A DNA stretch of 40,186 bases from Litorilinea aerophila. GTDB lineage: Bacteria > Chloroflexota > Anaerolineae > Caldilineales > Caldilineaceae. Below are positions 7,567-40,186 of this stretch, in pieces. The stretch spans positions 1-40,186 of the forward strand of contig CAMDQF010000015.1 of the NCBI GenBank assembly GCA_945905745.1, written 5' to 3'. The notes beneath the pieces were generated by a model that saw only the letters and a program-made list of their open reading frames with translations, was not told where the DNA came from and made no database searches. Both the position numbers and the translations under genes were made by a program. Each line of letters begins with the position of its first letter. Position 1 is the stretch's first letter.

Positions 7567-8721
7567 ATGAATGACCGTCAACGTTTTTTCGCCACAATGC
7601 ACTACCAGCCCCGGGACCGCTCCCCACTCTTGGATTTTGGCTTTTGGGACGAAACCCTGCCTATCTGGCACGCACAGGGGCTGCCCACATCGGTCAACCG
7701 GCTGACCAGCGACGACTTTTTTGGAATGGATTCGGGTATTGAAGCAGGCGGGCGGGCTGTCGGGGTGGTCAGCGATTTGGCCCCCGCCTTTGAGGAAAAG
7801 GTATTAGAAGATCGGGGCGAGTATGAGATACGCCAACAGGCCGACGGCGTACAGGTCCTGCGCCGCAAGTTTCTCAGCTCCATTCCCCTGCCTGTCAGCC
7901 ACCAACTCACCGACCGAGCCAGTTGGCAGGAACATTTCGCGCCCCGGCTCGACCCGAACAATCCGGCCCGCTACCCCACGGACTGGGACGAACGGGTGAA
8001 GGTGTGGACCGATCCCAACCGGGAGACATTGGCTGTGCTGCCCGGCGGCAGTCTCTATGGCAAACTGCGCAATTGGATGGGGGTGGAGAATCTCTCTCTG
8101 GTGGTCTACGACGACCCGGCCTGGTTCGAGGAGATGATCGAGACCGTCGCCGACTGTATCGTCGGCACACTGACCCGCATTCTGGAGACCGGCGGCCACT
8201 TCGACGCCTGTGGCATGTGGGAGGATATGGCCTACAACGCCGGTCCCCTGCTCAGCCCCCAGCACTTCAAGCAGTATATGGTCCCCCATTACCGGCGCAT
8301 CACCGATCTGCTCCACCGCCACGGGGTGGATATTGTCTGGGTGGACTGCGACGGCAAAATCGATCTCCTCGTCCCCCACTGGCTGGATGCGGGGGTGAAC
8401 TGCATGTTTCCTCTGGAAGTGGGCACGTGGGGCACAGACCCCATCGCCTACCGGGCCAAATTCGGCAAGGAGTTGCTGATAATGGGCGGCTTCGACAAAC
8501 ACATTCTGGCCCAGTCAAAAGAGGTAATCGAGCGGGAGGTCTACCGGCTGCTGCCTCTGGTGGAAGAAGGGGGCTACGTCGGCTTCTGCGATCACCGGGT
8601 TCCCCCGGATGTGCCGTTGGACAACTATCTCTTCTATCTGGAGACAGTACGGGAAGTCTGGGGGCAGGGGATCGATCTGAAGCCAATGGGCCGGTTGGAG
8701 AAAGTCATCAGTGAACAGTGA
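7567..8721 (+). CDS. UroD-like superfamily protein (second copy)
   Basis: UroD/methyltransferase-like; '...GFCDHRVPPDVPLDNYLFYLETVREVWG' is the typical C-terminal region. Confidence 0.85.
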   Translation: MNDRQRFFATMHYQPRDRSPLLDFGFWDETLPIWHAQGLPTSVNRLTSDDFFGMDSGIEAGGRAVGVVSDLAPAFEEKVLEDRGEYEIRQQADGVQVLRRKFLSSIPLPVSHQLTDRASWQEHFAPRLDPNNPARYPTDWDERVKVWTDPNRETLAVLPGGSLYGKLRNWMGVENLSLVVYDDPAWFEEMIETVADCIVGTLTRILETGGHFDACGMWEDMAYNAGPLLSPQHFKQYMVPHYRRITDLLHRHGVDIVWVDCDGKIDLLVPHWLDAGVNCMFPLEVGTWGTDPIAYRAKFGKELLIMGGFDKHILAQSKEVIEREVYRLLPLVEEGGYVGFCDHRVPPDVPLDNYLFYLETVREVWGQGIDLKPMGRLEKVISEQ

Positions 8722-8759
8722 TCAGTGGATGAGCGCTCGTCTACTGATTACTGTTCACT
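8710..8759. repeat. 7-nt-periodic palindromic repeat (CAGTGAA family), 17-bp arms
   Basis: agtgaacagtgatcagt (8710-8726) / actgattactgttcact (8743-8759), 16/17 complementary. Confidence 0.9.
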
Positions 8760-10795: not shown

Positions 10796-11643
10796 GCTTC
10801 GTTATCGTTGTGTTCCAGGCCAAAGATCGCTTCTTCCAGCGCGAAAATGCCCCGGTAGAAATGGACTCTTTCCAATGCGGTTTCCATCGCCGGGTAGACG
10901 TCGTAGCAGCGACGATAGAAATCTTCGCCGTAGGAGACATACAGCCCGGCGAAATCCGCGGCGGGGTCGCCCAGGCCGGTGAAGCTGAAATCGAGAATGC
11001 CGGTGATGGAGAGCGTTTCTGGGTCGTGCAGCAGATTGCCCGTGCCAAAGTCGCCGTGGCGGAGAGTAGGGGTGTAGGGGTGGCGATCCGCGTTGACAAA
11101 ATAGCGCTCGAAATGGGCGGTCACCCCGGCCTGGGCGTCGGGCCGCATATAGCCGTATAGATTGGCCTGGATGCGTGTGTAGAGGTCGGCCATATCCGCC
11201 GGACTGTCGGCCACAGGCTGGCCGCTGGGGACAATCTGATCGGGTGGGGTGTGGTGGAGTTCCCGCAGAAAGCCCGCCAACTGACCCGCCATCCGCGCCA
11301 GACCGTCGGAATCGTTGATAGCCTGGAACGCTTCCCGCCAGAGGGGTTGGCCGGGGACCAGCGGGTAGCCCATAAAGACTTCGCCCAGGACAGCGCTTTC
11401 TGTGTGGACAAAGGCGGGTTGCGGAATCGGCAATGAAATGTGGGGTTGGAACCGGTGCAGCAGTTCGACTTCCCGGCGCATGGTCTCGATGGCCGGGGCG
11501 ACTTTGGCAAAGCGAAAGATGAAGGCGTCGTTGACGACGAGAACGTCGTTGTACTGGCCGTCGCGGTTAAGGACGGCGGATTCGATGGAGAAATCTGGGT
11601 AGCAGTGATGAATTTGCTGGGTGTAGGAAGTGATTTTGTCCAT
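10729..11643 (-). CDS. Aminoglycoside phosphotransferase (APH)-family kinase
   Basis: 'LRHGDFGTGNLLHDPETLSITGILDFSFTGLGDPAADFAGL' APH catalytic and DFG-like motif. The 3' end lies inside element E1. Confidence 0.88.
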   Translation of the reverse strand: MDKITSYTQQIHHCYPDFSIESAVLNRDGQYNDVLVVNDAFIFRFAKVAPAIETMRREVELLHRFQPHISLPIPQPAFVHTESAVLGEVFMGYPLVPGQPLWREAFQAINDSDGLARMAGQLAGFLRELHHTPPDQIVPSGQPVADSPADMADLYTRIQANLYGYMRPDAQAGVTAHFERYFVNADRHPYTPTLRHGDFGTGNLLHDPETLSITGILDFSFTGLGDPAADFAGLYVSYGEDFYRRCYDVYPAMETALERVHFYRGIFALEEAIFGLEHNDNEAFQEGICSGQRDGEILDADERR

Positions 11644-13319
11644 CAGAAATCCAAAAACTGTGGCCGAAAAACCCACCCCCCATCCCCCCGGAAGCGCAGG
11701 TCGAAGTCATCTTCCCCCGCGCCCAGCACCAGTAAACGGCTGTGACGCTGCACTGGACCGGCGAATTCCACAGCCAGCGGCGCAGTCGTCTCCGCCTTCC
11801 CACTGGGACCGGAGGTGCGGGCCACGTGCAGGGTTTCCCCATCCCAGACCAGTGTGACGCCCCCTTCCCCCACGGGCAAATCCACCAGCGCCCACCAGCC
11901 CCAGTCGTCGGACCAGGCGCGGGCGAGGCGGAGAGACTGGTCGGTCCACTGGGGACTGGGAAGCGGGGACTGGAGACTGGGCAAACGTTCTTCCCAATCC
12001 CCAGTCCCCGCTTCCCAATCTCCAATCACAAACTCCGCCTCCCCTTCCCAGCGGGCTTCGTTTACGCCGTCGTCGCTGTGACGGGCAAGCTGGGCCGCGG
12101 CTTGCAGCGCGGCGGCAAAATCGGCCAGGGCTGCGGGCTGTTCGTCCAACTCCCGGCGGGCGCGGATGAGCACTTCGGCGCAGAGGCGCACAGCCGGGTA
12201 GTGTTCGGCCAGAGAAAAGCCGTGGGGCTGGCGACGCAGATGAGCGGCCAGACTGGTCAGATAGGCCCGGCTGCTGCGAGCCAGGGCGGGGGCGGTATCG
12301 GAACGGCTCTCCACATAAAAGGGCGCAAAGGCCGGGGGCAATTGTCCGTTGCCCTTTTCAGCCAGACGGCGCAGGTGTTCCAGCAGAGAGCGGCTGCGGG
12401 CTGGCTCATACAGGTCGAAGGCTTCCACTAGAGCGGGAACCGATGCCAGCAGCCCATCCGCGGGCGCATCGCCCCCGCGCAGACGGATAAGCTGGCGGGC
12501 CGCGGTCTGTTTGGCCTGATCCGCAGCCCGGTTGAACGCGGGATCCGGCGTCCATAGGCGGCCCCGTTGGGTGATGCGCTGCCAGACGTTCTGGGTCAGG
12601 TTGAAGGCCCGATCGATGTCCCGCTGGGCCAAAAAGCCGTTCCAGGCCATCTGCTCGCCCACTTCGCTGACCGTCAGAATCAGCGGCAGATCCACCTGAC
12701 CCGCCACCAGCACGTGATAGAGCAGGTGGGCACGGGATTCGTCGGGGAAGGAGACCCGATCGGGCTGCCCGTCCGCCGCGCCAAAGACCCGGGTACTCTC
12801 GGCGTTCTGCTGTTCGTGGACGCCCCGGGCTTGGCCGGGCAGGCTCTGGGCCACCAACAGGCCGTCCACCATCCGCTGCTCCAACGGCTCGCCCCAGTCG
12901 ATCTCCACGGCGATTTGCAGCAGCCGGTCCCCTTCGGCCTGACATTCCAACTGCCAGAGGACCGAGCGGTCTTCGTTGCTGCCCATCGGCGCATAGGTGC
13001 GTTTGCTGATAATCACCCCTTCCGCGCCGTAGATTGTCTCCTGATAGCCGGGATAAAAACGCGCGGCCAGGGGCAGCACATCCTCCATCGATTCGGCGCT
13101 GATGCCCTGGCTGGTGTAGATGGGCGCGGCAATGGAGAGGGTGATGGAGCGGGCGTAGGGCCGGTTCTGGCGGGAAAAGTCCAGGTCGTGGAGGTCGCTG
13201 TTGCGGTCGCTGAAGTAACGGACATCCGGGTTGGCGCGCAAAAAGCGGGCATCGGGGGCGATGTCGTCGTAGTCGAAGGTCTCTGGACGGTCAAGGATGG
13301 GGCTGGTGCGTTCAGGCAT
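11643..13319 (-). CDS. Uncharacterised protein; glycosidase-like in parts, function not assigned
   Basis: Long continuous ORF starting MPERTSPILDRPETFDYDDIAPDARFLRANPDVRYFSDRNSDLHDLD, 1-nt overlap with the downstream APH gene; no motif I can name confidently. Confidence 0.7.
   Translation of the reverse strand: MPERTSPILDRPETFDYDDIAPDARFLRANPDVRYFSDRNSDLHDLDFSRQNRPYARSITLSIAAPIYTSQGISAESMEDVLPLAARFYPGYQETIYGAEGVIISKRTYAPMGSNEDRSVLWQLECQAEGDRLLQIAVEIDWGEPLEQRMVDGLLVAQSLPGQARGVHEQQNAESTRVFGAADGQPDRVSFPDESRAHLLYHVLVAGQVDLPLILTVSEVGEQMAWNGFLAQRDIDRAFNLTQNVWQRITQRGRLWTPDPAFNRAADQAKQTAARQLIRLRGGDAPADGLLASVPALVEAFDLYEPARSRSLLEHLRRLAEKGNGQLPPAFAPFYVESRSDTAPALARSSRAYLTSLAAHLRRQPHGFSLAEHYPAVRLCAEVLIRARRELDEQPAALADFAAALQAAAQLARHSDDGVNEARWEGEAEFVIGDWEAGTGDWEERLPSLQSPLPSPQWTDQSLRLARAWSDDWGWWALVDLPVGEGGVTLVWDGETLHVARTSGPSGKAETTAPLAVEFAGPVQRHSRLLVLGAGEDDFDLRFRGDGGWVFRPQFLDF
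11954..12020. repeat. GGGGACTGG-type palindromic repeat inside a CDS (28-bp arms, 25/28 paired, 11-nt loop)
   Basis: GACTGGGAAGCGGGGACTGGAGACTGGG (11954-11981) / CCCAATCCCCAGTCCCCGCTTCCCAATC (11993-12020). Confidence 0.93.
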
Positions 13320-13345
13320 TGGGCAAGAACTCCGGGGTTTGTATT

Positions 13346-13486
13346 GCGTATTGCGTATTTCGTAAACGGATGGCGTTGGTTCTACTTTCCAGAATGGCCT
13401 GTAGTGACGAACTTTTGCTGGCATTGCCCAACCCGGTTTTCCCAGTCGCGCCTCAATCGTCACTACCTACGAAATACGCAATACGC
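13346..13486. repeat. Nested palindromes: outer 19-bp GCGTATTGCGTATTTCGTA inverted repeat, inner 10-bp GTAGTGACGA inverted repeat
   Basis: Outer 13346-13364 / 13468-13486 perfect; inner 13401-13410 / 13457-13466 perfect. Confidence 0.93.
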
Positions 13487-13487
13487 A

Positions 13488-15029
13488 TTACGCCTCTTTC
13501 ACCCCCGCCATCAACAGCCCCAGCCCCTCCCGGGTAGCGTCGTCCCGGTCCACAATGTCGATGATTTCGCCTTTGTACATCACCGCGATGCGGTCGGAGA
13601 GGGCGAGGATTTCATCCAGCTCCGAGCTGACCAGCACAACTGCCACCCCCTCATCCCGCTTGGCGACGATCTGCTGGTGGATGAATTCGATGGAGCCGAC
13701 GTCGATGCCCCGGGTAGGCTGGGCTGCGATGAGCAGTTGAATCGGGCGGCTGAATTCACGAGCGACGACCATTTTTTGCTGGTTGCCGCCGGAAAGACTC
13801 CCCCCGCTCAGATGAACGGAAGGGGTACGCACGTCGAATTTTTCCACCAGCGCTTTGGCATTGGCTTCGATAGCCGCGCGGTTGATAGTAACCCCTCTGG
13901 CAAAGGGGGGCTGGTAATAGGTGTTCAGCACCAGATTGTCGGCGATGGGGTAGCCATCCACCATTCCGTGGGCGTGGCGGTCTTCAGGGATGTGGCAGCT
14001 CTGCCCCTCTTCGGTGATGCGCCGCGGGCTGGCGTTGGTCATATCTTTGCCGCCGATGCGGATTGTGCCCCCTTTGGCTGCGCGCAGACCAGTGAGGACT
14101 TCCACCAGTTCGGTCTGCCCGTTGCCCTGGACACCGGCCACCCCCACAATCTCCCCGGCGTGGACAGAGAGAGAGACGCCCGCCAGAGCCGGTTCGCCCA
14201 AATCGGTGGAAGCAAAAACATCGGTCATCTCCAGAATCGCCTTGCCTGGATGGGCGTCTGATTTCGCCACTTCCAGAATCACATCCCGCCCCACCATCAG
14301 GCTGGCGAGGGTAGCCTGAGTGGCGGTCTTGGGGTCGGCTTCGCCCACGACTTCGCCCCGACGCAGGACGCCGATGCGATCCGCTACCCGCAGCACTTCT
14401 TTGAGTTTGTGGGTGATGAAAATAATCGACTTGCCCTGCTTGCGCAAGAGGTCCATCACCGCAAAAAGTCCTTCGATCTCCTGGGGGGTGAGGACGGCGG
14501 TCGGCTCGTCCAGAATCAGAATGTCGGCCTGGCGGTAGAGGGCTTTGATGATCTCCACCCGCTGGCGCACGCCCACAGGCAGATCCTCCACCAGCGCGTA
14601 GGGGTCCATCGCCATATTGTAGCGTTCGGATAATTCTGTGATACGGGCGGCCGCGGCTTCCCGGTTGAGAAAAGCGCCGCGCACGCTCTCGCTGCCCAGC
14701 ATCACATTGTCCACCACACTCATCACCGGCACTAGCTGGAAGTGCTGATGCACCATCCCGATGCCCAGGGCAATGGCGTCTTTGGGCGAACGCATCTGTA
14801 CCGGCTTGCCGTTGACCAGAATTTCGCCCTCCGTGGGTTGATAGAGGCCGTAGATGATATTCATCAGCGTGGATTTGCCCGCGCCATTTTCGCCCAGCAG
14901 AGCCAGAATTTCTCCCCGGTGCAGGGTCAGGTTGACGTTCTGGTTGGCGACGACGCCGGGAAAGCGTTTGGTGATGTTGCGGGCTTCGAGTACGGGTGTT
15001 TGTTCCACGGCAGGGTTTGCTCCTGGCAT
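13488..15029 (-). CDS. ABC transporter ATP-binding protein, sugar/nucleoside (NupA/RbsA-like) with two ATPase domains
   Basis: Walker A 'LLGENGAGKSTLMNIIYGLYQPTEGEI', 'ILDEPTAVLTPQE', second degenerate domain 'LSGGNQQKMVVAREFSRPIQLLIAAQPTRGIDVGSIEFIH'. Confidence 0.95.
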   Translation of the reverse strand: MPGANPAVEQTPVLEARNITKRFPGVVANQNVNLTLHRGEILALLGENGAGKSTLMNIIYGLYQPTEGEILVNGKPVQMRSPKDAIALGIGMVHQHFQLVPVMSVVDNVMLGSESVRGAFLNREAAAARITELSERYNMAMDPYALVEDLPVGVRQRVEIIKALYRQADILILDEPTAVLTPQEIEGLFAVMDLLRKQGKSIIFITHKLKEVLRVADRIGVLRRGEVVGEADPKTATQATLASLMVGRDVILEVAKSDAHPGKAILEMTDVFASTDLGEPALAGVSLSVHAGEIVGVAGVQGNGQTELVEVLTGLRAAKGGTIRIGGKDMTNASPRRITEEGQSCHIPEDRHAHGMVDGYPIADNLVLNTYYQPPFARGVTINRAAIEANAKALVEKFDVRTPSVHLSGGSLSGGNQQKMVVAREFSRPIQLLIAAQPTRGIDVGSIEFIHQQIVAKRDEGVAVVLVSSELDEILALSDRIAVMYKGEIIDIVDRDDATREGLGLLMAGVKEA

Positions 15030-26969: not shown

Positions 26970-27070
26970 GTAGACCGCAGCGTGTTGGGTTCTCCTGGCA
27001 CTCGTTGGCGTGTAGATGCCGATCTCTTGCCAGGAGAACCCAACCTACGATTGGGCAGTCTGCGGTCTAC
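26970..27070 (+). repeat. 101-bp palindromic element, copy A
   Basis: Outer GTAGACCGCAG/CTGCGGTCTAC and inner GTTGGGTTCTCCTGGCA/TGCCAGGAGAACCCAAC inverted repeats; reverse complement of copy B with 5 differences in 101 nt. Confidence 0.95.
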
Positions 27071-27082
27071 AGATATGGGGTA

Positions 27083-30298: not shown

Positions 30299-30330
30299 GG
30301 GTTTTCCGACGAGGGCTGCTTCAATACTCT

Positions 30331-30431
30331 GTAGACCGCAGACTGCCTAATTGTAGGTTGGGTTCTCCTGGCAAGAGATCGGCATCTACACTCCAACGAG
30401 TGCCAGGAGAACCCAACCCACTGCGGTCTAC
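30331..30431 (-). repeat. 101-bp palindromic element, copy B (inverted relative to copy A)
   Basis: Reverse complement matches 26970-27070 at 96/101 positions. Confidence 0.95.
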
Positions 30432-33026: not shown

Positions 33027-33099
33027 AGGGGACTGGGGATTGGATGACTGGGGATTGGGATATCTCCAGTCTCCAATCCCTACTCCCCAGTCCCCAATC
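33027..33099. repeat. GGGGACTGGGGATTGG-type palindromic repeat between the nucleoside hydrolase genes
   Basis: aggggactggggattggatgactggggattggg ... ccagtctccaatccctactccccagtccccaatccct; same sequence type as 11954-12020. Confidence 0.88.
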
Positions 33100-34109: not shown

Positions 34110-34165
34110 CGTAGTGCGTAGTGCGTGAACTGGTAGTGAAGTTGGTTCACGCACCACGCACTACG
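34110..34165. repeat. CGTAGTG-periodic palindrome, 21-bp arms (20/21)
   Basis: CGTAGTGCGTAGTGCGTGAAC (34110-34130) / GTTCACGCACCACGCACTACG (34145-34165). Confidence 0.92.
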
Positions 34166-34218
34166 GTCATCGGCGAGCGACTAACCCATAAGACGTCGAT
34201 CTTGCGATGGTACGGAGT

Positions 34219-34268
34219 ATTGGATATTTCGTCTGGCACGCGACCACATACCAGACGAAATATCCAAT
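34219..34268. repeat. Perfect 18-bp inverted repeat followed by ATATCCA heptads
   Basis: ATTGGATATTTCGTCTGG (34219-34236) / CCAGACGAAATATCCAAT (34251-34268). Confidence 0.92.
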
Positions 34269-34303
34269 ATCCAATACCCAATCCCCACCCCCAGGAGTTC
34301 CCA

Positions 34304-35509: not shown

Positions 35510-38317
35510 ATGACAAAGATGCATGAATTGGCAGTGACCGGACAATCGATCTGGCTGGATTACATCCGCCGGGCTTTTTTGGATGCGGGCAAACTGAACG
35601 ATCTGGTCAACAAAGGGCTGCGGGGTGTCACGTCGAACCCCTCCATCTTCCAGCAAGCCATCACCAGCAGCACAGATTACAATGCGGCCATCGAACGGCT
35701 GGTGAGCGAAGGGCTGACCGTCAACGACATCTACGAAACTCTGGCCATCCAGGACATCCGCCGGGCCGCCGACATCCTGCGCCCGGTCTACGAACGCACA
35801 GACGCCCTGGACGGCTATGTGAGTTTGGAGGTGAATCCCAAACTGGCCTACGACACCGAAGGCACTGTGATGGAGGCCCGCCGTCTCTTTTCTATGGTGG
35901 ATCGGCCCAATGTGATGATCAAAGTGCCGGCCACGCCCCAGGGCATCCCCGCCATCGAGACACTGATCGGCGAGGGCATCAATGTCAATGTGACGCTGAT
36001 GTTCTCGATGAAGCACTACGACGAGACCGCCAACGCCTACATCAGCGGGCTGGAACGGCTGGCTTCCAGTAATGTGGACTACAGCCGAGTGGCATCGGTG
36101 GCCTCCTTCTTTGTCAGCCGGGTGGACGCGGTGACGGACAAGAAAGTGGTTGCCTTGGGCCACCCGGAACTGGAAGGCAAAATTGCCATCGCCAACGCCC
36201 GTATGGCCTACGACCGTTTCAAAGCCACCTTCAGCGGTCCCCGTTGGCAGAAGCTGGCGGCCAAAGGCGCACGGGTCCAGCGCCCGCTCTGGGGCAGCAC
36301 CAGCACCAAAAACCCCGCCTTCCCGGACACCCTCTACGTAGATGAATTGATCGGCCCCCACACCGTCAATACTTTGCCGTTGAATACGCTGGACGCTTTT
36401 CTGGATCACGGCACAGTAGCCCGCACAGTGGACGCAGACCCGGCTGCCGACCGCAGCTCTCTGGCAGCGCTGGCCGAGCTGGGCATCGATCTGGACGCCA
36501 TCACTGAACAGTTGCAGCGGGACGGGGTGAAATCCTTTGCCGACGCCTTCGACGTGCTGATGCAGAGCATCGCCGACAAGGCCGCCAGCTTTTCCGGCAG
36601 CAGCAGCCACAGCCTGGGCCAGCGGGTGCGCCTGCATCTGGGCGACCAGCAGGCTGGGGTGGACGCGGCCCTGGCCCAGATGGACAAGAGCCAGCTTGTG
36701 GCCCGCATTTGGGCCAACAGCTACACCGTCTGGAAGCCGCAGCCAGAGGAGATCAGCAACCGGCTGGGCTGGCTGCGCATTGCCGAAGCGATGAAACGGG
36801 AGAGCGAGTGCATCGACGGGCTGGTGCAAGACTTTCAGAACGAGGGCTACAAACAGGCGATTGTGCTGGGGATGGGGGGGAGCAGCCTGGCCCCGGAGGT
36901 CTTTGGCCGCTCCTTCCGGGGCACCGAGATCGGTCTGACCATTCTGGACAGCACCCATCCCGACGAAGTGGCGGCCGTGGCCCAGGGCCTGGACCCGGCA
37001 GCCACCCTCTTTATCGTCTCCACCAAATCGGGGACGACCGCCGAGACCGACTCCTTCTTCAAATATTTCTACAATTTGACTGTGGAAGCCGTGGGAGCGG
37101 AGCAGGCGGGCCAGCACTTCGTCGCCATCACCGACCCCGGCTCCAAACTGGTGGCTCTGGCTGAAGCCTACAGTTTTCGGGCTATTTACATCAACGACCC
37201 TGGCATCGGCGGGCGCTACTCGGCCCTCTCCCACTTCGGGCTGGTTCCCGCCAGTCTGGTGGGGGTGGACCTGACCCGGCTCCTGCGCCGGGCCACCGAG
37301 GCAATGAATAGCTGCGGCAGCCACGTCAACGCCAGCCAGAATCCCGCGGCCATCATCGGCGCGGTGCTGGGCGAACTGGCCAAGGCAGGCCGGGACAAAT
37401 TGACAATCATCGCCTCGCCTCAGATTGCCAGCTTTGGGGATTGGCTGGAACAGTTGGTGGCCGAGAGTCTGGGCAAAGAGGGCAAAGGCATCCTGCCGGT
37501 GGTGGGCGAAGCCGTGGGCGGGCCGGAAGTCTACGGCAATGATCGCCTCTTTGTCTATCTCCAGTGCAGCGATGACGAGAGCCAGAACGGCGCAGTCCAT
37601 GCCCTGCGCGAGGCGGGCCAGCCGGTAATTCAGCTCCACTTCCGGGACATCTACGACCTGGCCGAGCAGTTCTTCGTCTGGGAGTTCGCCGTAGCCGTGG
37701 CGGGCGAACGGCTGGGGGTCAACCCCTTCGACCAGCCTAATGTGGAGTCGGCCAAAGTCCAGGCCCGCAAGATGCTGGATGCCTACACCCGCACAGGCAA
37801 ATTGCCCGAACTGATTGCCGCGTTGGTGGATGGCAACGCCACCCTCTACGGAGGCATCTACGGCGATGTCACTGCAACCGACCTGCCCGCTGCCCTCCGG
37901 GACTTTCTCGACAGTGCCCGGCCCGGTGATTATGTGGCGATCCAGGCCTACATCCAGCCCAGCCCGGCGATGGCGAAGGCGTTGGCGGGCTTGCAGACAG
38001 CCATCCGCAACCGCACCAAAGCCGCGGTGACACTGGGTTTCGGCCCCCGCTTTCTGCATTCCACCGGCCAGCTCCACAAAGGCGACGGGGGCAACGGCCT
38101 CTTCTTGCAGCTGGTGGACGAGCCAACGGACGATCTGCCCATCCCCGACACTGCGGGCAAGCCGGAGAGCAGCGTCACCTTTGGCGTGCTGGTAGCTTCC
38201 CAATCCCTGGGCGACCGCCAGGCTCTGCTCGACGCCGGTCGCCGGCTCTTGCGCATCGATCTGGGCAGCAGCCCGGCTGGAGAAGTGGGGCGGATGGCGG
38301 AAGCGATACGGGGATAG
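35510..38317 (+). CDS. Bifunctional transaldolase / glucose-6-phosphate isomerase fusion
   Basis: N-terminal transaldolase 'GLRGVTSNPSIFQQAI', 'VMIKVPATPQGIPAIETLIGEGINVNVTLMFS'; C-terminal Pgi-like 'VLGMGGSSLAPEVFGRSF', 'FIVSTKSGTTAETDSFFKYF'. Confidence 0.95.
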   Translation: MTKMHELAVTGQSIWLDYIRRAFLDAGKLNDLVNKGLRGVTSNPSIFQQAITSSTDYNAAIERLVSEGLTVNDIYETLAIQDIRRAADILRPVYERTDALDGYVSLEVNPKLAYDTEGTVMEARRLFSMVDRPNVMIKVPATPQGIPAIETLIGEGINVNVTLMFSMKHYDETANAYISGLERLASSNVDYSRVASVASFFVSRVDAVTDKKVVALGHPELEGKIAIANARMAYDRFKATFSGPRWQKLAAKGARVQRPLWGSTSTKNPAFPDTLYVDELIGPHTVNTLPLNTLDAFLDHGTVARTVDADPAADRSSLAALAELGIDLDAITEQLQRDGVKSFADAFDVLMQSIADKAASFSGSSSHSLGQRVRLHLGDQQAGVDAALAQMDKSQLVARIWANSYTVWKPQPEEISNRLGWLRIAEAMKRESECIDGLVQDFQNEGYKQAIVLGMGGSSLAPEVFGRSFRGTEIGLTILDSTHPDEVAAVAQGLDPAATLFIVSTKSGTTAETDSFFKYFYNLTVEAVGAEQAGQHFVAITDPGSKLVALAEAYSFRAIYINDPGIGGRYSALSHFGLVPASLVGVDLTRLLRRATEAMNSCGSHVNASQNPAAIIGAVLGELAKAGRDKLTIIASPQIASFGDWLEQLVAESLGKEGKGILPVVGEAVGGPEVYGNDRLFVYLQCSDDESQNGAVHALREAGQPVIQLHFRDIYDLAEQFFVWEFAVAVAGERLGVNPFDQPNVESAKVQARKMLDAYTRTGKLPELIAALVDGNATLYGGIYGDVTATDLPAALRDFLDSARPGDYVAIQAYIQPSPAMAKALAGLQTAIRNRTKAAVTLGFGPRFLHSTGQLHKGDGGNGLFLQLVDEPTDDLPIPDTAGKPESSVTFGVLVASQSLGDRQALLDAGRRLLRIDLGSSPAGEVGRMAEAIRG

Positions 38318-38410
38318 GACAAGAGGAAGGGAGGAGAAGAGGAAGGGAGGAAGTCGTCTTATCCTCCTGTCCTCCTGTCCTCCTGTCCCCCTGTCCCCCT
38401 GTCCCCCCTT
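38317..38410. repeat. 8-nt-periodic CCTCCTGT / CCCCCTGT repeat with purine-rich partial complement
   Basis: cctcctgtcctcctgtcctcctgtccccctgtccccctgtcccccc preceded by gaggaagggaggagaagaggaagggagg. Confidence 0.85.
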
Positions 38411-39547: not shown

Positions 39548-40186
39548 TTACTGCAACTGCCCACGAGCAGCATCCAACTTTGGCTGGATAATCTGCGCGG
39601 CCAAGTCCGGCAGTCCGATTGCTTCCCACAAACCAATGGCCGATTCAAACAGACGGATTGAATCGGCAAAGTTTTCCTGGGCTACTTGCCAATCCCCCAT
39701 TCGATAGAGAACCCGCGCAATGCTGTAGCGGTCTCCAATTGCGTTATACAGATGGAATACAGCTTCGTATCGTTGCCAGGCCTCGCTATATTCCTTCTCA
39801 GCACGTAAAATATCTCCCATTGCCAATAGCACATTCGCCTCGCCCAGCCGAGCCCCCACGGCCTGGAAGAGGGCCAGCGCCCTCTCATACTTCCCCAACG
39901 CCTCGTCCCGCTTATCCTGAAACGAGAGCACGTCCCCCTGGGCCTGAAGCACATTCGCCTCGCCCAGCCGATCCCCCACGGCCTGGAAGAGGGCCAGCGC
40001 CCTCTCATACTTCCCCAACGCCTCGTCCGTCTTTTTCAGAAAATAGAGCACGTCCCCCTGGGCCTTCAGCACATTCGCCTCGCCCAGCCGAGCCCCCACG
40101 GCCTGGAAGAGGGCCAGCGCCCTCTCATACTTCCCCAACGCCTCGTCCCGCTTATCCTGAAACGAGAGCACGTCCCCCTGGGCCTG
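39548..40186 (-). CDS. TPR-repeat protein, N-terminus beyond window edge
   Basis: 40-aa units 'FQAVGARLGEANVLKAQGDVLYFLKKTDEALGKYERALAL'; 120-bp tandem DNA period from about 39829 to the window end. Confidence 0.85.
   Translation of the reverse strand, partial: QAQGDVLSFQDKRDEALGKYERALALFQAVGARLGEANVLKAQGDVLYFLKKTDEALGKYERALALFQAVGDRLGEANVLQAQGDVLSFQDKRDEALGKYERALALFQAVGARLGEANVLLAMGDILRAEKEYSEAWQRYEAVFHLYNAIGDRYSIARVLYRMGDWQVAQENFADSIRLFESAIGLWEAIGLPDLAAQIIQPKLDAARGQLQ

Follow-up and report, generated by a model that had tools for sequence, protein, structure and literature searches.

An in-frame palindromic heptamer array in a Caldilineaceae gene and the turnover of related arrays in protein loops

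The palindrome and its host gene

The window analysed here, 40,186 nucleotides in length, is contig C15 of G000, a 6.4-Mb metagenome-assembled genome of the Caldilineaceae (Chloroflexota); among named GenBank entries it is closest to metagenome-assembled genomes of the Caldilineaceae/Anaerolineae. A minus-strand ORF of 558 aa (11643–13319) contains, in frame, a 75-bp palindromic element at positions 11950–12024. Its two 32-nt arms are made of GGGGAYT-type units. Arm 1 (11950–11981, plus strand) reads TGGGGAC TGGGAAG CGGGGAC TGGAGAC TGGG, with the G-rich strand running inward, and arm 2 (11993–12024, minus strand) carries the units inverted, with the minus-strand G-rich reading likewise inward. 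Between them lies an 11-nt spacer, CAAACGTTCTT, at 11982–11992. The arms are 88% complementary, with 28 of 32 positions forming Watson-Crick pairs. The peptide encoded across the element is ...EFV-IGDWEAGTGDWEERLPSLQSPLPSPQ-WTDQ..., and the ORF reads through it with no stop codon. Thus, the palindrome that an earlier note placed in frame in this ORF is indeed there, although its limits, given as 11954–12020 with 28-bp arms, have to be moved outward.

The host protein is without a Pfam family. Its relatives align on both sides of the element, down to ~45% identity, so the ORF is a real gene, and the idea that a repeat of intergenic type keeps the frame of a genuine gene is borne out. The element lies after the last predicted helix. 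Mean pLDDT of the predicted structure is 54, and the insert has values of ~30, as do all residues past 433. This low-confidence model is laid out as a beta domain, a helical domain and a C-terminal beta domain. Its Foldseek matches are GH94/GH65/GH63 proteins with TM-scores around 0.25, and the resemblance to proteins of those types that the model suggests is only a lead.

Within the genus we compared G000 with six other genomes, G001–G006. The segment had been expected to be absent from orthologues, and this is not so: the nearest ones, in G006 and G001 (85–86% identical), carry a segment of the same length in the same place, made of different heptamer arrays. The element at this site is therefore not recent: it was already in place before G000, G001 and G006 diverged, and since then its sequence has been altered. 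In a comparison for covariation of the arms, confined to three sequences, 28, 20 and 17 of 32 positions pair in the window's register; the G001 segment retains a hairpin, with its best register shifted by one heptamer. The G002 orthologue (66% identical) has a linker 5 aa longer, with a weak period-7 signal and no clear palindrome. Orthologues in other genera have unrelated linkers of differing lengths, and some relatives have linkers of similar length. Since linker lengths vary in this family, an older linker may have been replaced, and from the sequences at hand such a replacement appears as likely as an insertion. These variable linkers in distant relatives leave simple insertion less clear here than it is in two other proteins, at site 2 of CarB and at site B of the helicase.

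A second element adjoins the gene. Between the 558-aa ORF and an ABC transporter gene lies a 178-bp insertion (13310–13487) whose inverted ends are arrays of the heptamer TATTGCG (arms at 13341–13364 and 13468–13491) and an inner TAGTGACGA/TCGTCACTA pair; it alters the N-terminus of the 558-aa ORF. G006 and G001 lack the insertion at the orthologous site, where their genes are a few bases apart. Inspection of the insertion by eye found no clear target duplication, and no pair of genomes was close enough to give an exact empty site.

A class of inward-facing heptamer arrays

The palindrome is one of many. A blastn search with the element plus flanking sequence finds 84 places in its own genome. 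A survey of fetched stretches, in which 600 kb of this genome was sampled, gave 190 inverted repeats, whereas 180 kb of shuffled sequence gave 4, and a 19-mer of the GGGGAYT family, GGGGAYTGGGGAYTGGGGA, has 232 exact copies in G000 and none for a control read backwards. These three counts place the palindrome class far beyond chance. Strong tandem arrays in the same 600 kb have period 7 in 75 cases, period 8 in 15 and other periods from 5 to 12 in 15; shuffled sequence has none at periods 5 to 12. Repeats detected with the 19-mer are strong in G002 and G005 and weaker in G001, G006, G017 and G020, all members of the family, and it occurs at most six times per genome in 399 other sampled Chloroflexota outside the family.

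An element of this class is built of two degenerate tandem arrays of 7-mers (some of 8-mers), inverted relative to each other and separated by a short spacer (median 13 nt). The arm units of the class to which 11950–12024 belongs are GGGGACT, GGGGATT, GGAGATT and variants of these. Unit families in the genome are GGGGAYT, CAGTNAN, GGAGATT, GAGATTGG, GTATTGG, GTAGTGC, AAACGTG, GGTGGCA, GAATTGC and others, and the two arms of one element can differ in family or in period. Across copies the spacers have no common motif apart from a modest enrichment of GTAC and AATT. What the elements do share is polarity: the G-rich strand runs inward in 32 of the 34 neighbouring-array pairs with a clear sign (32 vs 2, p = 7e-8), and mixed-family pairs behave in the same way (10 of 10 signed pairs).

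Several further members lie in the window. The intergenic hairpin at 33027–33099, which had been named as being of the same type as the in-gene palindrome, is real and belongs to the GGGGAYT family. Two more intergenic inverted pairs are found at 34110–34165 (GTAGTGC heptamers) and 34209–34278 (GTATTGG-type, GGTACGGAGTATTGGATATTTCG...). CAGTNAN heptamers, to which MacGregor's (2015) TAACTGA type belongs, form an inverted pair at a gene edge (8710–8759), and 8-mers of the GGAGGAAG type form another inverted pair at 38317–38396.

Copies inside genes and their change between species

Sixteen of 41 GGGGAYT hairpins lie inside called genes, but this 39% is not an unbiased rate, since the loci were taken by blastn rank, that is by similarity to an in-gene copy, or as in-gene candidates; in the 600-kb sample 1 of 10 is inside a called gene. 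In-gene copies were moreover recovered as parts of ORFs, which favours those that are in frame. By Pfam, the hosts of GGGGAYT copies include CarB, which has two, RACo, two subunits of xanthine-dehydrogenase type, an HRQ1-like helicase (two copies and a third loop with other arrays), a UDP-glucose/GDP-mannose dehydrogenase, an aminotransferase and a glycosyltransferase. An enzyme of the LeuC/aconitase family hosts a GTATTGG hairpin. CarB aligns over its full length with E. coli CarB and has two extra in-frame stretches, which are at the elements, and the alignment of RACo with the solved RACo structure 3zyy falls into two parts, interrupted at the element. We also note a xanthine-dehydrogenase-type ORF in G005 (locus L143, G005:C263:3500-8500) in which a single gene holds three paired-array elements of different families.

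The units most used in genes have a simple property in common. Computed arrays of GGGGAYT, GGAGATT, GTATTGG, GGTGGCA, GCGAGGG, GAATTGC and GACGGCA are free of stop codons in all six frames. Any copy with a net length divisible by three would therefore contribute a Gly/Pro/Ser-rich peptide (e.g., GDWGLGTG...SPQSPIP). The 7-nt period passes through all frames, and thus an arm yields a single peptide cycle in any frame. Arrays of CAGTNAN have stop codons on both strands and those of AAACGTG on one; among hairpins of these two families in the 600-kb sample, 0 of 15 and 0 of 6, respectively, lie inside called genes.

Nine loops in six proteins were compared among species, the sites having been picked because G000 has an element there. 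All 51 segments from the genus are in frame and stop-free, at lengths from 54 to 216 nt, and their best period is 7 in 49 and 8 in 2. Species not used in the choice of sites contributed 42 of the 51, and a few segments are weak (e.g., that of G002 at the window's site). Segments from other genera and families have a period of 7 or 8 in 19 of 45 cases, about half of them weak. The strong ones outside the genus are real arrays, in LeuC of G009, G010 and G017 and in CarB of G009, G010 and G015. Median identity between species is 0.62 for the segments, compared with 0.85 for their flanks and 0.55 for unrelated sites.

In one and the same loop, sister species whose proteins are roughly 85–94% identical often differ in their repeat units. 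The XDH loop has GTATTGG units in G001 and GGGGAYT units in G000, G002, G005 and G006, in proteins that are 91–92% identical. CarB loop 1 is more varied still, with GGGGAYT in G000 and G002, GCGAGGG with GAATTGC in G001, GAGATTGG in G005 and G006, and GTGGCAA with GTATTGC in G004. These loops suggest that proteins have been rewritten by a repeat process acting at the DNA level. At CarB loop 2, three array-free genera have 24 nt where G000 has 81 nt, so insertion or expansion is clear there. The long synteny between G006:C34 and G001:C49 proved too rearranged to give many empty sites. Two other states of CarB loop 2 deserve mention: that of G005 (locus L221) has three array types consecutively, and that of G009 (L222) has an outer GCGAGGG pair nested around an inner GTCAATG/GTGAATT pair.

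Origin of the arrays and comparison with known repeats

The palindrome at 11950–12024 is best explained as a single member of a class of convergent 7/8-mer array hairpins that extends through the genus. Judging from the comparisons above, stop-free hairpin arrays are probably tolerated in proteins as linkers, with selection keeping site and frame while array processes rewrite the content. In-gene arrays would be translated and borne as flexible surface linkers, and what selection retains would be the frame and the neighbouring domains rather than the linker sequence. The arrays may be rewritten in place by slippage, by template switching between the arms, or by breakage of the hairpin and repair from other arrays. 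A benefit to the host need not be assumed.

A rather less likely account invokes repeated insertion into the same permissive loops: the palindromes would be mobile elements of REP/MITE type that a Y1 (RAYT-like) transposase moves, and the unit families would be element families. Y1_Tnp genes are present in most of the element-bearing genomes (six in G000, seven each in G001 and G005, five in G006 and four in G002), and the nested hairpin in CarB loop 2 of G009 also speaks for this account. Intragenic REPs are known, and Di Nocera (2013, PMC3733652) describes them as short palindromes that encode 20–30 aa within genes, including repair genes. REPs are, however, defined there by GTAG or CGTC tags and not by heptamer arrays, and direct reading of the ends of 11950–12024 finds neither tag. 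Copies of the present class share the heptamer unit only, their spacers are without a common motif, and the arms of one element may belong to different families or periods. Many relatives in which the repeat search gave no match likewise have Y1 genes, and G009 has elements and zero Y1 genes (at 85% completeness). The only Y1 gene in the surveyed stretches, G000:C8:8896-9159, has no array beside it, the nearest elements being at least 3 kb off. Transposition of REP/MITE type may apply, chiefly to the 178-bp element at 13310–13487, with its empty site in two relatives.

Less likely still, the hairpin would be maintained because it acts as nucleic acid (mRNA pausing or stability, or G-quadruplex signalling), with the peptide as a by-product. 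The median hairpin score is 25.6 for the genus segments and 9.6 for the others, and Rehm (2015, PMC4692102) reports G-quadruplexes formed in vitro by consensus oligonucleotides of GGGGA(C/T)T and of the Xanthomonas repeats. Many in-gene copies nevertheless pair poorly or have arms that do not match, and yet arrays and frame persist; at CarB loop 2, at helicase loop C and in LeuC, several species have scores of only 6 to 14.

Translated linkers rewritten in place thus remain our preferred reading, and a more specific mechanism of rewriting, which we regard as improbable, may be mentioned beside it. Fragile hairpins would break, a bacterial repeat-adding activity would lengthen each 3′ end independently by repeats of 7 or 8 nt, and joining of the two ends would leave the convergent arrays as scars, much like telomeres fused head to head. 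Such end-healing would explain the inward G-rich strand, arms of mixed family, unconserved spacers, the strict 7/8 period and the repeated rewriting of loops. A reverse transcriptase as the source of arrays finds no support in its presence and absence: RVT_1 has no match in G001, which is 100% complete and has elements. RVT_1 reverse transcriptases, in frames of mostly about 350–370 aa, were seen in G000 (C14, C40 and C216), G002, G005, G006 and G009.

It is very doubtful that the segment is spliced out of the RNA or bypassed by ribosomes. Hairpins of such size could permit either, but removal would not require that the genus segments always be in frame and stop-free, as they are despite lengths of 54–216 nt, although this test is weakened by the recovery of segments via ORFs. 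Membership in the Rickettsia palindromic element (RPE) family is least credible of all. The earlier note's comparison with RPEs is apt as an analogy, both being palindromes in frame in unrelated metabolic genes, and fails as an identity: RPEs are families of elements with a conserved peptide and a length of about 150 bp (Ogata 2000, 2002, cited in PMC10969869), and here the element is 75 bp (54–216 nt at other in-gene sites), has arms of tandem heptamers, shares with other copies a short unit and no common element sequence, arms and spacers vary, and the content is replaced between species.

Among the closest known repeats are those of other bacteria with heptamer arrays. In Nostoc PCC 7120, according to Rehm (2015, PMC4692102), GGGGA(C/T)T repeats are tandem and dispersed, about a third of them intragenic and few in inverted pairs, and Xanthomonas genomes have 70–75 inverted pairs of GGGAATC repeats each. 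The Nostoc unit is identical to GGGGAYT of G000, which also has it as tandem, dispersed units (232 19-mers, period 7). In-frame conservation in orthologues, turnover of families in loops and arms of mixed family are not among the features reported in the consulted parts of that paper. In the trnL intron of Nostoc, P6b is a stem-loop whose stem consists of heptamers of either the TDNGATT or the NNTGAGT class (Kaasalainen 2015, PMC4476775). As in the loops described above, one class has repeatedly been swapped for another at a fixed site; unlike them, P6b is in a group I intron, is not protein-coding and uses two classes only. The TAACTGA repeats, known from Beggiatoaceae and cyanobacteria, are mostly direct and upstream of starts, with some copies in Beggiatoaceae ORFs (MacGregor 2015, PMC4679880). 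The CAGTNAN family of G000 includes this heptamer but, unlike those repeats, forms inverted pairs and in our sample has none inside called genes. Locus L092 (19768–19880) is another instance in the Chloroflexota of a TAACTGA heptamer array arranged as an inverted pair.

Thus, heptamer hairpins and in-frame palindromes are each known separately, and it is their combination that appears to be new; in the open-access literature, as far as its accessible portions go, we found no description of in-frame heptamer hairpins in conserved protein loops with turnover of families. Descriptions of the heptamer repeats of filamentous bacteria have so far come with no mechanism, and it is chiefly in Rickettsia that in-frame palindromes are known; the conserved metabolic and repair enzymes described here bring the two together. 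Two questions thereby become directly testable: by what route the repeats change in place, and to what extent a protein can bear linkers that come from a process at the DNA level and not from selection on the peptide.

The window also contains repeats of other kinds. A 104-nt inverted repeat (26970–27073 and 30328–30431, 3.3 kb apart) is 95% complementary and contains a GTTGGGTTCTCCTGGC hairpin, which belongs to a separate, REP-like family and recurs elsewhere, e.g., at L135 2128–2188. At the far end of the window (39813–40186), three tandem copies of a 120-bp repeat run off the end of the contig.
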